Assembly: GCA_029288805.1 (NCBI GenBank)
Contig: JARIGO010000005.1
Location: 1 to 39,608 of the forward strand
Source: Candidatus Nomurabacteria bacterium
Lineage (GTDB): Bacteria > Patescibacteriota > Minisyncoccia > Phycocordibacterales > UBA9973
DNA length: 39,608 bases
Direction: 5' to 3'
The position numbers and the translations under genes are program-made. The number at the start of each line of letters is the position of its first letter. Within the stretch, counting starts at the first letter, position 1. Below, one piece after another: positions 33,941 to 39,608 of this stretch. The notes below the pieces were generated by a model, which did no database searches, was not told the DNA's origin, and worked only from the letters and a program-made list of their open reading frames with translations.

Positions 33941-34819
33941 TTATGAGGTGCCTTTTAATTTTGACTCACAATATGATCGAACCATTTTGTATGTTTCTGA
34001 ATTCTCAACATCAGAAGCATGATCTTCAATGAAACCTTCTTTTTCTTCATACACATGGTAGAAAGTTCCTAGGGTCTTTGCCAAGGCCTTAAGATACCCT
34101 GCCCCTAAACCATTACTTTGAGCATACAGGTAGTAAGTCTCAAGCTGGGTTTTTATTTGTGATAATGCATCAGCAAGATATGGGTGCTCATTAATTTTTT
34201 CTCGCTCTTTATTTTTATGCAATTTTGCTAACTCAAGAACTGTTTCCTTGGTGGTACACAAAATAGTTCTGAAAACATTCATTGAACCTTTATAGTTTTC
34301 AGTATCGACATATTTAACGAGAGATTGTTTAGCTTTTTCAATATCGTTGTTCCAAATAGAATCAAGCTTATTTTTTAGGGTTACGTAATCATTTGAAAAA
34401 GTAACATCAATACCTAAACCAAGATATTCAGGATTTTCTGCATCTTCATCTGGTAAGAACTCAATAACACAGTCAACCTTTCTCAAAAAATCATCTGGAT
34501 CTGCAGTCGGAAAAGCTTCTGCCTTATTTGCCATCCATTCACCACAAAATTGGTCAATTATAATTCCTTCGAAAATATTACTAATTTGTTTATTTTTCTT
34601 TTCGAAATCATTATTATTTTCTTCCCATTGAAACTTTAATTTTTCCGTAAGCTCTACTTCCCTTTTTATTTCTTCAGGATCAAAACCTGGTTGCTTAAGG
34701 AAGTCTTCAGCATTTGGCTGATATCGTTTCTTTTGATCTTCAAAAAATTTTTCCTGAGAATTAATAAGATAATCCTCTTGCATTGACTCAAACGATATAT
34801 TATTGCCTATTCCTTCCAT
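33941..34819 (-). CDS. Hypothetical cytosolic protein, possible restriction-nuclease-like core
   Basis: 292 residues, highly charged, helical at both ends. The centre reads GEWMANKAEAFPTADPDDFLRKVDCVIEF...LGLGIDVTFSND: an acidic residue, then β-strands with D and ID, which is suggestive of a PD-(D/E)XK fold but lacks a clear ExK. That fold is a weak inference. TATAAT ends 8 nt before the ATG. It lies beside tRNA-Gly at the left end of the accessory island. Confidence 0.6.
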   Translation of the reverse strand: MEGIGNNISFESMQEDYLINSQEKFFEDQKKRYQPNAEDFLKQPGFDPEEIKREVELTEKLKFQWEENNNDFEKKNKQISNIFEGIIIDQFCGEWMANKAEAFPTADPDDFLRKVDCVIEFLPDEDAENPEYLGLGIDVTFSNDYVTLKNKLDSIWNNDIEKAKQSLVKYVDTENYKGSMNVFRTILCTTKETVLELAKLHKNKEREKINEHPYLADALSQIKTQLETYYLYAQSNGLGAGYLKALAKTLGTFYHVYEEKEGFIEDHASDVENSETYKMVRSYCESKLKGTS

Positions 34820-34846
34820 ATATTTTTATTATATAGAAAACTCTTG

Positions 34847-34917
34847 TGCGGGTACAGGGAATCGAACCCTGGTCTACACATTGGAAGTGTGTCATTCTAC
34901 CACTAAACTATACCCGC
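34847..34917 (-). tRNA. tRNA-Gly, anticodon TCC
   Basis: Complete cloverleaf: acceptor GCGGGTA/TACCCGC, D-arm with GTTTAGTGGTAGAAT, anticodon stem ACACA/TGTGT around CTTCCAA (anticodon TCC, reads GGA), T-arm CAGGG-TTCGATT-CCCTG, discriminator A. The 3' CCA is not encoded. A TATAAT box at 34933-34938 (minus) lies 15 nt upstream. Confidence 0.96.
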
Positions 34918-34969
34918 TTTATCCCTATTTCAATTATATTATTTTCTCGGAATTTTCCGATTGTCGGGA

Positions 34970-35113
34970 CTAAGGGATCACATTAGAGCCACCAACCGTT
35001 TTAAGGGCATAATTTCCTAGTGATACCTTGGTTATGTTACAACCGGTAATGCCAATACTATATACAATGGTGAACCTAAAGGCAAATGGTGAAGCATCGA
35101 GTTTATTACTGCT
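34970..35113 (-). pseudogene. Decayed gene tail R1 (47 codons, no start)
   Basis: Minus-strand frame open from after a stop at 35114-35116 to TAG at 34970. It encodes a protein-like tail that begins SSNKLDASPFAFRFTIVYS and ends SLGNYALKTVGGSNVIP, with no ATG. It aligns at DNA level over about 110 nt with R2 (36432-36545), whose translation keeps NKL near the start and KVSL..TV.SSNV.P at the end. It is therefore the 3' remnant of a gene, not noise. Immediately after the stop comes TCCCGACAA, shared with R2 and with the 3' end of tRNA-Pro. Confidence 0.6.
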
Positions 35114-35140
35114 TTACCCAAGTCCTGGTAGAATTAAGCA

Positions 35141-35743
35141 ATGGGAGGAGAAAAGGAATTTAAGGATAAATCGACGTTCATGTTAGGCTATCTGGCTGTT
35201 ATCATTGCCCTGCTTCAGATCAAAGACAGCCTGCGGAACATAATAATAAACGTGTTCGACCTACAGTTCTCTTTGTATGTGGCACTACTGGTCTTTATAT
35301 TTTTCTTGATACTGATAATGTATCTATTCGCGCTTACCTACTTCAAGTTTTGGGAAGAGAAAACAAGACCTGTATTGAAAACAATAAAACAAACCGCGGA
35401 AATCCTATTTAATTTTTCCTTAGTATCTCCAATCCTATTTGGGTTATTAATTGTTAGCAGTTATATCATTAAGACTCTGCATAATTTTTCTCCAACAACA
35501 GCGTTTGCAGTCAACCAGGGATTCAGCTTTATTACAACTATGGTTATAGCGGTGTTCTCTATAAACACTTTTTATTCCCTGAAAAAAGCCGGGGCATCCT
35601 CCAAAAATATAAGCAATGAGGAAAAAGAGGAAATTAGGAAAAGGTTTGCCAAGCAGCAGAGCTCTGTAATAAATAGGACGGCGGTGTTATTAGGAGCTAT
35701 TACTTCAGTTCTTACCATTATTGTTGAGATATTCGCTAAATAA
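35141..35743 (+). CDS. Hypothetical multi-pass membrane protein
   Basis: 200 residues with about five TM helices (about 13-30, 42-68, 88-112, 124-145, 178-198), a charged loop (KNISNEEKEEIRKRFAKQQ) and a cytoplasmic lysine-rich N-terminus. No family recognised. TAGAAT (35129-35134) ends 6 nt before the ATG, and the ATG is followed by GGGAGGAG inside the coding sequence. It lies between decayed tails R1 and R2, so it is probably accessory DNA. Confidence 0.7.
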   Translation: MGGEKEFKDKSTFMLGYLAVIIALLQIKDSLRNIIINVFDLQFSLYVALLVFIFFLILIMYLFALTYFKFWEEKTRPVLKTIKQTAEILFNFSLVSPILFGLLIVSSYIIKTLHNFSPTTAFAVNQGFSFITTMVIAVFSINTFYSLKKAGASSKNISNEEKEEIRKRFAKQQSSVINRTAVLLGAITSVLTIIVEIFAK

Positions 35744-35806
35744 ATTATGGATGAAGCCGTTATCAGAAACATGAGGAAACGATTTTAGGCAATAGTCCCC
35801 AAACAT

Positions 35807-35833
35807 AAAAAGCCTGATCAGGGATCAGACTTT
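35807..35833 (-). terminator. Terminator of the lipoprotein gene
   Basis: Stem CTGATC/GATCAG (35814-35819, 35823-35828) extended by A-T pairs past one mismatch, followed on the minus strand by five T. Confidence 0.75.
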
Positions 35834-35848
35834 GAGTAAAGAGTGCTT

Positions 35849-36193
35849 TTATTTTAAGCGTTTTTGGTTAAAGAAATCATCGACAAGAATAGTAACTTTC
35901 TTACCGACTAAAACAGTATCGAAGACTTTCTTTTCCACATTAAATGTATCAACACATGATTCCCCTTCTGCAGAAGTACTTTTGACAACCACTGACCAGC
36001 TTTCCGGTACGGAAACCTGCATGATAACCGGTACGTAAACAATGGCTTTACCAGTTGATACTGCACCAGCACCAACCCTTTTTTCCATGTGGGCGGTGTC
36101 GTGTACCTTATTGATAACCAGGGCTGACTGAGACTGTGTACAAGATGTGAAAAACAGTGCCGAAAGAAACCCAAAAAGAAATAACTTTTTCAT
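35849..36193 (-). CDS. Small lipoprotein
   Basis: 114 residues from the ATG at 36193. Lipoprotein signal MKKLFLFGFLSALFFTSC, lipobox FTSC, Cys18. The mature part is β-like (AIVYVPVIMQVSVPESWSVVV) with no known family. A longer frame starting at 36286 is rejected: its extra N-terminus is encoded by the hairpin leader and would bury the signal peptide. Like the lipoprotein at 6476-6961 it uses a TTGACA/TATNNT promoter and a long leader, unlike its neighbours. Confidence 0.7.
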   Translation of the reverse strand: MKKLFLFGFLSALFFTSCTQSQSALVINKVHDTAHMEKRVGAGAVSTGKAIVYVPVIMQVSVPESWSVVVKSTSAEGESCVDTFNVEKKVFDTVLVGKKVTILVDDFFNQKRLK

Positions 36194-36195
36194 AT

Positions 36196-36251
36196 ATTTT
36201 ATTGGTTTACCGCAAAGCCCTATAAAAGGATTTCTGGAAAACCAATAAAAT
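36196..36251 (-). promoter_or_regulatory. Long hairpin in the lipoprotein 5' leader
   Basis: Perfect 13-bp inverted repeat: ATTTTATTGGTTT (36196-36208) and AAACCAATAAAAT (36239-36251), with a 30-nt loop. In the transcript the 3' arm ends 2 nt before the ATG, so the folded leader would cover the ribosome-binding region. It could act as a thermosensor, a protein-binding switch or a stabiliser. Confidence 0.6.
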
Positions 36252-36274
36252 GTTGTGAAGAACTTTATGTTTAT

Positions 36275-36303
36275 ATAATATAACATTTTTTATAAAATGT
36301 CAA
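36275..36303 (-). promoter_or_regulatory. Sigma70-type promoter of the lipoprotein gene
   Basis: Minus strand: TTGACA (36298-36303), 17-nt spacer, TATTAT (36275-36280). Start near 36268, leader about 75 nt. Confidence 0.75.
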
Positions 36304-36359
36304 GTTAGATTACTAGTTCCGACATTAGTATTATCCGTCTGATTTTTTAAATGTCCATG

Positions 36360-36430
36360 CAAAATAAGGCCGTAATAAGCCTTATTTTGTATAGATCAAT
36401 ATTGATTTTGAGTACTTTCTCCTTGTCGGG
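36360..36430. repeat. Copy B1 of the tRNA-Pro downstream block
   Basis: About 71 nt, roughly 93% identical by eye to 38635-38707. It includes the terminator stem (AAAATAAGGC/GCCTTATTTT), CAATATT-GATTTTGAG and CTTGTCGGGA, the last being the tail of tRNA-Pro. Here it abuts the decayed gene tail R2 instead of a tRNA. Confidence 0.85.
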
Positions 36431-36431
36431 A

Positions 36432-36545
36432 CTAAGGGAGCACATTAGAACTTTTAACCGTTGTAAGGGGGAAAATTCTTAGTGATACTTTGGTGTTATG
36501 CTGCGACCAGTAATGCCGTTACTATGTACAATAATCAATTATTTA
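36432..36545 (-). pseudogene. Decayed gene tail R2, frameshifted
   Basis: Minus-strand relative of R1. One frame reads IIVHSNGITGRSIT and a shifted one KVSLRIFPLTTVKSSNVLP then TAG at 36432-36434. The stop is followed by TCCCGACAAGGAG, as after tRNA-Pro. Upstream coding is lost. Similarity to R1 is about 80% by eye over 110 nt. Confidence 0.55.
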
Positions 36546-36559
36546 GCAATTGCAGTTTA

Positions 36560-37459
36560 TTAAATTTTAACGTTAAGCCTTTTAAATACTATCTTTCTGT
36601 AAACACTTGGAGATTTTTCAATCAAATATTTAAGTAAGTTAGGAACCCATGACTCAGTAATAGCAAAGGTCGCAACAACGAAACACAGCGACAAGAAATT
36701 GCTTTTCCCTATTTTACTTAAATAGCCATGGTGAATATTTAATATTAATAAAAGGATATATATTAATAGTATTACTATGCAATAGAATACGACTGACCAT
36801 CGTTTTGCCTTATAGCCAAAAAAGCTTATTTCATCAGGTTCATTAAAAGCAAACTTAAATAATTGCTCATTTTCTTTTTCAACTTGCTTGCTGTTAAATT
36901 TATTAACCAGAGAAAAGTTTCGGGTAGCGATATCTTCTTTTTTTGTTCTATAGCCTGAAATAATAAGTAGAAGAAGAATTAGAATACGATCTATATCTTT
37001 CACAGTAGCAGGTAGCGTCTTCCGCCAAAACCTCAGCTTTTCCCTCACAATAAACCCCCTAATTGGCTTAGTGGGTAGCCGATGCGCATTTCTTAACTTT
37101 ATAAGAATATCCTTAGGAATTATCTCTTTATCCTGATAGTAAAATTTATCTTCTCTCTCGTTGTAAGAAAAGTCTTGATGAATATCTATATCTACGGGAA
37201 CATTTATGTCATCTGTTGTTCCCAAACTTACTCCGTCCTCTACCTTTTTACCATAACTTGCACTGAGCCAAACTTTTTTTATCTCATCGCTTTGAATTGA
37301 GCCGCTACTACTCAGACCAACTTTGTACATGGAAACATACCCATCCGGATAGTCGTTATCCTCAAGCACACTAAAGCCGACTCCGTCTATGAAATCTACC
37401 GGGCTAAGGAAATTGGAAAATGGCACTTCGAATTTTCTTCTAAAATCACTGGCAGTCAT
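36560..37459 (-). CDS. Hypothetical membrane protein
   Basis: 299 residues. A soluble N-terminal 155 residues (WLSASYGKKVEDGVSLGTTDDINVPVDIDIHQDFSYNE, then IPKDILIKLRNAHRLP) precedes three membrane helices: about 162-175, 222-243 and 254-270. No family recognised. TATATT ends exactly 6 nt before the ATG. The gene is AT-rich compared with the housekeeping part of the window and sits inside the tRNA-bounded accessory island; the large cytosolic domain plus C-terminal helices is a layout seen in some defence effectors, but nothing more specific supports that. Confidence 0.65.
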   Translation of the reverse strand: MTASDFRRKFEVPFSNFLSPVDFIDGVGFSVLEDNDYPDGYVSMYKVGLSSSGSIQSDEIKKVWLSASYGKKVEDGVSLGTTDDINVPVDIDIHQDFSYNEREDKFYYQDKEIIPKDILIKLRNAHRLPTKPIRGFIVREKLRFWRKTLPATVKDIDRILILLLLIISGYRTKKEDIATRNFSLVNKFNSKQVEKENEQLFKFAFNEPDEISFFGYKAKRWSVVFYCIVILLIYILLLILNIHHGYLSKIGKSNFLSLCFVVATFAITESWVPNLLKYLIEKSPSVYRKIVFKRLNVKI

Positions 37460-37551
37460 TACCTGAATATATCATACGAATTATTAAATATTTATTAAAA
37501 GCATTTAATTAGCTGCTTGCAAATACTGTCAAATAAGGTATTGTGCGCAAC

Positions 37552-37722
37552 ATGCAGATAAAACAGGAGCGATTAGAGGCGTTCAAGGAACTGTACAAGA
37601 AACAGTTTGATGTAGAGCTCTCAAACCCGGAGGCGTACGACAAGGCGCGCAAGGTGCTTTCCTATGCAAAGCTCTGCCTGAAGCCGTTTGAGAAGGTTGG
37701 TGTCAGGGAGTTTGAGGTATAG
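37552..37722 (+). CDS. Small charged protein (56 aa), GC-richer than its surroundings
   Basis: Begins MQIKQERLEAFKELYKKQFD and ends VGVREFEV; helical, with the pattern R-L-x-F-K-x-L-Y-x-x-x-F-x-x-E-L-S-x-x-E-A. From memory, similar small proteins recur in CPR genomes beside mobile or conjugative genes; no function assigned. TTGCAA-16-TATTGT precedes it and TATTGT ends 7 nt before the ATG. Codons are clearly GC-richer than neighbouring island genes. A terminator follows. Confidence 0.65.
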   Translation: MQIKQERLEAFKELYKKQFDVELSNPEAYDKARKVLSYAKLCLKPFEKVGVREFEV

Positions 37723-37754
37723 ACTGTACGCGTAGTCAGACACAAACGGTATAT

Positions 37755-37782
37755 AAAATCCCCTCTAACAAAGGGGGTTTTA
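37755..37782 (+). terminator. Intrinsic terminator
   Basis: AAAATCCCC / GGGGGTTTT stem (one T-G pair) with a 9-nt loop, then TATATTTTT. Serves the 56-aa ORF and faces the convergent 103-aa gene. Confidence 0.8.
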
Positions 37783-37787
37783 TATTT

Positions 37788-38099
37788 TTATTGATGCCCT
37801 ATCCTAATTATTCTATACCCATCTTCTGATGCTGGGTAAATAAATTGACCTATTGCGGGCGGACTCGTTATCTCTTGATTTACACCATCAACCTCATACC
37901 CTTTAGAAATAAGGAACTGCTTAATGCTTTCCGCAAAAATAATTGCCTCTCCATCTCCGAGCGCAGCGAAAATTTTAAATTTTTCATTCTTGCTAATACT
38001 TCCTAAGAGATGTGATTTAAAGGCTTCATCCACTTCTCTTTGAGTTTTTCCAAATGAAATATTGTTGTTTCCAAAAATATTGTTTTGATTTATATCCAT
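37788..38099 (-). CDS. Hypothetical protein sharing an Asn-rich N-terminus with its upstream neighbour
   Basis: 103 residues. N-terminus MDINQNNIFGNNNISFG, then a soluble α/β part (EAFKSHLLGSISKNEKFKIFAALGDGEAIIFAESIKQFLISKGYEVDGV). No TM helix. It starts 2 nt after the stop of the 59-aa gene, whose N-terminus MNINQKNVYGSNS is clearly related, so the two products probably act together or assemble through the shared segment. No family recognised. Confidence 0.6.
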   Translation of the reverse strand: MDINQNNIFGNNNISFGKTQREVDEAFKSHLLGSISKNEKFKIFAALGDGEAIIFAESIKQFLISKGYEVDGVNQEITSPPAIGQFIYPASEDGYRIIRIGHQ

Positions 38100-38854: not shown

Positions 38855-39220
38855 TTAGGTTAAATCTATAATTTCTATTTTTGCTTCCCTATCCTGATCT
38901 CCCAATAACACTATAATTCCCTGCATTTTGTAATCTTTTATGCGGTGTTTGAATATATAGTAGTCGGCGGACCGTATAAACTTCCACAACTTCTCTTTGG
39001 TGAGGTTATCAGCCGGATTGAACCAACTTCCCTGTTTTCCAGCCTTAACCTCAAAAAAGTGATATGTTTTCTTCTTTTTTGCGATTACGTCGATTTCCCC
39101 GTTTCTAGTATGAAAATTACGCTCAACTATGGAAAAACCTTGTTTCATGAGAAACAATACCGCTAAATCTTCTCCTTTTTTCCCCAATTGCTGGGTTTTT
39201 GAAGTAAATATTCGAATCAT
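38855..39220 (-). CDS. YraN/UPF0102-family endonuclease-like protein
   Basis: 121 residues, the family's usual length. Opens with QQLGKKGEDLAVLFLMKQGFSIVERNFHTRNGEIDVIA and FFEVKAG: the GExD..ExK core of a restriction-endonuclease-like fold is intact. Biological role in the family is poorly defined; links to recombination or DNA repair have been proposed. The parS palindrome lies 4 nt upstream of its ATG, within its promoter region. No TANNNT-N6 start is evident here. Confidence 0.9.
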   Translation of the reverse strand: MIRIFTSKTQQLGKKGEDLAVLFLMKQGFSIVERNFHTRNGEIDVIAKKKKTYHFFEVKAGKQGSWFNPADNLTKEKLWKFIRSADYYIFKHRIKDYKMQGIIVLLGDQDREAKIEIIDLT

Positions 39221-39224
39221 ATGA

Positions 39225-39250
39225 ATAAGTGTTTCACGTGAAACACTTAT
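39225..39250. promoter_or_regulatory. parS centromere-like site
   Basis: The core TGTTTCACGTGAAACA (39230-39245) is an exact match to the 16-bp bacterial parS consensus, embedded in a perfect 26-bp palindrome (ATAAGTGTTTCAC and its complement). ParB loads here and spreads for origin segregation. No parA or parB is in the window. Confidence 0.93.
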
Positions 39251-39440
39251 GAGGTGTTCCTTGTGTAACTACATTATACCTATATTACATAAAGGTTTTT
39301 AAAAGAAATCAATATTTACAGACAGTATAAAAGTCGTCCTTTATCCCTTTTACACACACACTTATCCACAGTTTTGTCAAAAAGTTAATAAAATTGGTCT
39401 CATCTGACACTATAAGACTGTCTTTGTCCAAGAAAATGAG
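39251..39440. other. Candidate replication origin (oriC) region
   Basis: No gene. A perfect DnaA box TTATCCACA (39362-39370) and a second match to TTWTNCACA, TTTTACACA (39348-39356), lie 5 nt apart in the same orientation, flanked by AT-rich DNA on both sides (39263-39330 and 39371-39395). The parS site lies just to the left. This combination is typical of a chromosomal origin. dnaA/dnaN are not visible and may lie to the right. Confidence 0.65.
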
Positions 39441-39608
39441 GTATTGGTATTAAACAAACAGGGAATTAGAGCTGTTTTCACTCGGAGGTATTATCATTCC
39501 AAGGACGGGTACCCTTCCCAATCCTTTCCATGACAATACCTCCTCTTTTAACAGCCGGAGCTCTCCGCACAAAACAAAAGACCCGTTACATGTGTAACGG
39601 GTCTTTTG
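39440..39608 (+). ncRNA. Candidate structured RNA ending in a terminator
   Basis: No plausible plus-strand ORF. A long imperfect hairpin: GCTGTT (39471-39476)/AACAGC (39550-39555), symmetrical bubble, GGAGGTATT (39484-39492)/AATACCTCC (39535-39543), 8/8 internal loop, AAGGA (39501-39505)/TCCTT (39522-39526). An intrinsic terminator follows at 39575-39608. The rod with symmetrical bubbles recalls 6S RNA, but no conserved motif is recognised. On the minus strand the same DNA could encode a 17-codon peptide (39478-39531) behind GGAGGT, with that site paired in the hairpin. Confidence 0.4.
39575..39608. terminator. 34-nt perfect palindromic terminator at the window edge
   Basis: 16-bp stem, arm CAAAAGACCCGTTACA, TG loop, right arm ending GGGTCTTTTG. 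Functional in either direction. Confidence 0.9.

Follow-up and report, generated by a model that had tools for sequence, protein, structure and literature searches.

A conserved parS site with a neighbouring predicted DnaA-box module upstream of yraN in Candidatus Nomurabacteria, near but probably not at the replication origin

The parS locus in the window

The window analysed here, 39,608 bp in length, is a complete contig (C8) of a draft genome of 680,668 bp that comprises 26 contigs and is 96% complete. Near its right end lies yraN (UPF0102), encoding a 121-aa protein on the minus strand (38855–39220), with its start codon 9 nt from parS, a presumed ParB loading site. This site matches the 16-bp parS consensus TGTTTCACGTGAAACA exactly (39230–39245) and is enclosed by a perfect 26-bp palindrome, identical to its own reverse complement (39225–39250); neither feature is assigned a strand. 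An exact parS is expected by chance only 0.00025 times in 680,668 bp at 42% GC, and the site is the only one genome-wide with at most one mismatch. Allowing two mismatches adds a single further site in the whole genome, at 39141–39156 within yraN, and a similar site occurs at the same place in many relatives, a recurrence that conserved coding sequence may explain. A more degenerate, strandless parS-like palindrome with three mismatches lies 25 bp from parS (39255–39270), and another with three mismatches (39584–39599) forms part of the stem of a hairpin resembling a terminator, where the contig ends (39575–39608). The latter is the window's variant of a second palindrome type, TGTTACAYRTGTAACA, which recurs around parS in relatives (L007, L008, L017, L030 and L033), often 24–26 bp away. 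To the left of yraN, five open reading frames without a Pfam match (33944–38099) occupy a stretch of 35–37% GC, compared with 42% overall, and this GC-poor stretch beside the window's two tRNA genes is a possible island.

To the right of parS, two DnaA-box-like 9-mers, TTTTACACA at 39348–39356 and TTATCCACA at 39362–39370, are separated by 5 nt and belong to a predicted DnaA-box module on the plus strand, CTTTATCCC-TTTTACACA-CACAC-TTATCCACA (39339–39370), in which the second of the two is the main box, 132 bp from parS. The flanks are AT-rich, at 72% (39246–39345) and 69% (39371–39440) against 58% for the window, with 76% AT in the strandless stretch between parS and the boxes (39270–39345). 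Each of the sequence elements reported in the initial annotation, namely the exact parS within a 26-bp palindrome, the two boxes 5 nt apart and the AT-rich flanks, was found again at these positions. The number of boxes was discarded as evidence, as the window holds six DnaA-box matches where 5.4 are expected by chance; the significance of the boxes comes instead from their conservation across relatives.

Because the window is a whole contig, the sequence to the right of position 39608 is absent. Neither dnaA nor dnaN nor cca was found in the assembly, the cca search having used a single query protein and no positive control, and since all three are missing together, the simplest reading is that the bin lacks the sequence beyond the contig's right end. 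We rejected a real loss of dnaA, given that dnaN and cca are also missing and that DnaA is present in 128 of the 147 family genomes.

Conservation and spacing among relatives

In 87 of the 147 family genomes, a parS was found with no more than one mismatch; 55 of those 87 were listed, and the locus was surveyed in 51 of these (G059, G086, G089 and G092 were left out). In 50 of the 51, yraN lies within ∼1.3 kb of parS, the sole exception being G064, where yraN was undetectable. The position of parS just ahead of the yraN start codon, which had been regarded as unusual, is therefore a trait of the family. Among 22 loci from 22 phylum genomes outside the family, yraN adjoins parS only in G264, which belongs to the same class. 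The G264 locus (L106) carries five exact parS sites at a regular 48-bp spacing.

On the side of parS away from yraN, a DnaA-box module of the form CTTTATnnACA-nTACACACA-nAG-TTATCC(A/C)CA was present in all 50 of 50 genomes, with 12 to 22 of 23 context positions matching and 15 of 23 in the window. Across nine genomes (2.41 million strand-bases), modules with at least 13 matches occur 11 times, and nine of these are each genome's parS locus, a count that is descriptive since the consensus was derived from those same loci. In G043, a single-contig relative, the only place in the whole genome with at least 14 matches (21 there) is 154 bp from parS, and every site with at most two mismatches to parS lies within 1.1 kb at the parS locus.

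The distance from parS to the main box is 124–167 bp in 37 of 41 genomes. Within two genera it varies with standard deviations of only 3.0 and 5.9 bp, while the distance from yraN to parS in the same genomes varies with standard deviations of 50.9 and 36.0. This steadiness suggests that parS and the predicted boxes form a joint unit, though the genomes are not independent and share their spacing by descent. For seven of the 50 genomes, the 420 bp to the left of the box contain no parS with one mismatch or fewer; these seven stand outside the statistics, as do G044 and G045, where the nearest such parS is 385 bp from the box and a parS-like site with two mismatches is 166 bp from it.

In many relatives, the module is followed on its right by cca, encoding the tRNA nucleotidyltransferase, then by an exonuclease-III-like gene (identified by eye) and, in G043, by a XerC-like recombinase, and parS and the boxes occupy the spacer between yraN and cca. 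The boxes of this spacer could act as a site of DnaA titration or reactivation, as datA and DARS do in Escherichia coli, or could control transcription of yraN and the adjacent tRNA or cca genes, with their closeness to parS being incidental. Three box-like repeats within ∼30 nt and no unwinding motif would suit such a role, as would two features noted by eye in many relatives, an inverted TGTCCTTTAT/ATAAAGGACA pair flanking the repeats and, on the right, tRNA-like sequence. However, a parS–box distance constant to a few bp in two genera, while yraN and parS drift relative to each other, argues against an incidental association, even if common descent weakens the argument, and we regard titration or local regulation as quite improbable.

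The position of the replication origin

In the nine family genomes found with parS and dnaA on one contig, the two are 24.6–46.2 kb apart; among 22 further phylum genomes, 16 show a distance of 10.7–41.9 kb. As the assembly itself lacks dnaA, it is from these distances in relatives that the site is placed near the origin, as expected of a centromere. Since the pairing of parS and DnaA boxes is conserved and dnaA lies 25–46 kb away in relatives, the locus is origin-proximal, in agreement with the initial annotation. That annotation went further and took the locus for the likely chromosome origin, naming a skew switch elsewhere and a far-off dnaA as evidence to the contrary, and dnaA does lie ∼40 kb away in relatives.

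Raw GC skew favoured parS. In G043, it places the origin at 512–518 kb (495–527 kb scores almost equally well), in accord with parS at 511.7 kb but not with dnaA at 552.7 kb, and in seven of seven genomes the stretch from parS to dnaA has positive raw skew. An eighth genome, G019, whose parS contig lacks dnaA and which was therefore not used in the corrected fits described below, is the sole one of the eight in which the skew rightward of parS is negative. These data could be explained if the parS/DnaA-box module were itself the replication origin, in which case the boxes would recruit DnaA, the AT-rich flank would open and parS would mark the newly copied origin. In E. coli, dnaA lies ∼40 kb from the origin. 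The module is moreover unique and conserved, and gene orientation points in the same direction: between parS and dnaA, 80–87% of coding bases are on one strand in seven genomes and would run head-on to replication from an origin at dnaA. When gene orientation alone was fitted, parS was preferred over dnaA in six of six genomes, with the best position in G043 at 518 kb (a drop of 19.5 at dnaA) and those in the five others to the left of parS.

The stretch at 520–552 kb of G043 (L049 and L050) forms a block of ∼40 kb in which ∼86% of coding bases are directed towards dnaA and which encodes PrgI and TraG/VirB4-like P-loop proteins. An origin at dnaA would set the genes of the parS–dnaA block head-on to replication, and the same bias is seen in G325, which lies outside the family.

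Because the stretch between parS and dnaA is strongly one-stranded and genes have a skew of their own, we estimated the origin position in nine genomes from third-codon and intergenic bases while controlling for gene orientation. In G043, the best position moved to 553.0 kb, in the region of the dnaA–dnaN spacer, and the log-likelihood dropped by 51.9 at parS. The peaks of G001, G057 and G027 are within 1.6 kb of dnaA, and in G001, with more sequence, the drop at parS was 28.9; outside the family, the peaks of G325 and G163 are 4.3 kb and 1.4 kb from dnaA. G045 remains near parS even after correction (peak at 532.0 kb, parS at 534.1 kb, drop of 14.5 at dnaA), G055 agrees with neither place and G087 is undecided. 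Overall, six of the nine genomes, including the only single-contig genome of the family, favour dnaA, one favours parS and two favour neither or are undecided. In the GC-skew analysis called for in the initial annotation, the raw skew of G043 does switch beside parS, but the orientation-corrected optimum is at dnaA–dnaN.

The dnaA–dnaN spacer is 71–83% AT in ten family genomes, and in several genomes it contains tandem boxes (for example TAATCCACATATCCACA) and, after them, triplets resembling TAATAGTAGTAATAG, a pattern that is weaker in the genus of the window. We take this to be the arrangement of boxes and DnaA-trios of the bacterial unwinding element, and the spacer of G043 looks like a standard one. 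In the Bacillus subtilis oriC, the unwinding region is likewise in the dnaA–dnaN spacer, with boxes and DnaA-trios. At the parS module, in contrast, inspection by eye revealed no DnaA-trio-like repeats; there are only two or three boxes, and the module is not the place densest in DnaA boxes in G043. The module had been our lead candidate for oriC on the strength of raw skew and linkage and was dropped after the trio-like repeats at dnaA–dnaN and the corrected fit, both of which make it unlikely that the module is the origin and leave that part of the initial annotation without good support. The locus is probably near the replication origin but not itself the origin, and replication most likely starts in the dnaA–dnaN spacer, in sequence that lies ∼40 kb rightward and is absent from the assembly.

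ParB, SMC and a predicted centromere

The genome encodes a single ParB (C12:7324–8361), on a different contig from parS. The protein has the features expected of a cognate ParB, with a ParB_N domain (C12:7369–7674, E 3.7e-29), a GERR CTP motif and a helix-turn-helix, and its residues 14–218, spanning the N-terminal and helix-turn-helix parts, align with Spo0J/ParB structures. Its gene is preceded by miaA, assigned by eye, and by a tRNA-like element, and no ParA is visible on this 8.4-kb contig. The ParA-type ATPase (PF13614) that would complete a ParABS system was not found in the genome. Within the family, ParB is present in 130 of 147 genomes and a ParA-type ATPase in 15 of 147 at E ≤0.001, seven of them above the curated cut-off, and a motif scan of G043 found no KGGxGKT-type protein. 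In G043, parB is 148 kb from parS.

G043 does encode an SMC_N protein (L181:7110–9461). At 784 aa it is short, as is the 733-aa protein of G325 (L123:7194–9392), given that ordinary SMC proteins have ∼1,150–1,200 aa. Both are matched end to end by SMC_N, and neither is matched by the Pfam family of the SMC hinge.

Judged by its sequence, the locus is a real, conserved centromere locus with predicted DnaA boxes. From the observed sequence, conservation, spacing, linkage and gene content, we infer DnaA binding, ParB loading, SMC recruitment and a coupling between them, and consider it probable that the locus is a centromere at which ParB loads and which includes its own DnaA-box module, with the origin at dnaA–dnaN and ParB acting via a short SMC protein. 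The single ParB would load as clamps at the parS upstream of yraN and then spread over the region, while DnaA would bind the conserved module ∼130–165 bp from parS, such that the proteins of initiation and segregation would meet at one spot near, and not at, the origin. Since a recognisable ParA is almost absent from the family, ParB would probably rely on a short SMC protein, and by binding the module DnaA may help to set when sister origins separate.

Parts of this arrangement are seen in known systems. In Caulobacter crescentus, DnaA binds boxes at parS and starts segregation, and parS is ∼8 kb from the origin (Mera et al. 2014, as described in PMC6399470). The two systems are alike in that parS lies close to the origin without coinciding with it and is accompanied by DnaA boxes, here recognised from box sequence and spacing; unlike in Caulobacter, the site is ∼25–46 kb from dnaA in relatives with boxes at a near-fixed distance, and ParA, on which the fast movement of parS depends in that organism, is mostly missing. 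Streptococcus pneumoniae also has an orphan ParB without ParA and origin-near parS, and its ParB serves SMC loading (PMC7022226, in part); however, four parS are given for it in the review's table, compared with one strong site here, and a DnaA-box module is not described for it in the available text. With B. subtilis Spo0J/parS, the locus shares the parS consensus, and the relatives' dnaA–dnaN spacer shares its boxes and trios. B. subtilis differs in having ten parS and a ParA, whose control of initiation is independent of where parS is placed (PMC7614844, in part), and parB is distant from parS here, as in G043.

Little work seems to exist on how Patescibacteria segregate their chromosomes. 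For Peregrinibacteria, GC skew was used to place the origin, and sequences resembling DnaA boxes lay near it (PMC4736985); according to another paper, the inflection of the skew often falls near dnaA (PMC7111523). The main text of a Saccharibacteria genetics paper mentions none of parB, SMC, dnaA and oriC (PMC10633639). In the accessible literature on segregation and origins in Patescibacteria and the candidate phyla radiation, we found no description of this parS/yraN/DnaA-box locus, and we found no paper joining parS, ParB and Parcubacteria, or oriC, DnaA and Nomurabacteria.

These results bear on both replication and segregation in the family. In these genomes, an origin called from raw GC skew can be off by ∼40 kb, and this matters for growth-rate estimates from read depth. 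More tentatively, and as a possibility we would not put foremost, this may be a family of Patescibacteria that segregates its chromosomes without ParA by means of a compact composite centromere, parS plus a DnaA-box module at a near-fixed distance, in which DnaA rather than ParA would couple initiation to the loading and release of ParB and SMC. In some members at least, this module may additionally serve as a second origin. A conserved DnaA-box centromere in a nearly ParA-free family is a concrete target for studying how replication and segregation are coupled in minimal cells.
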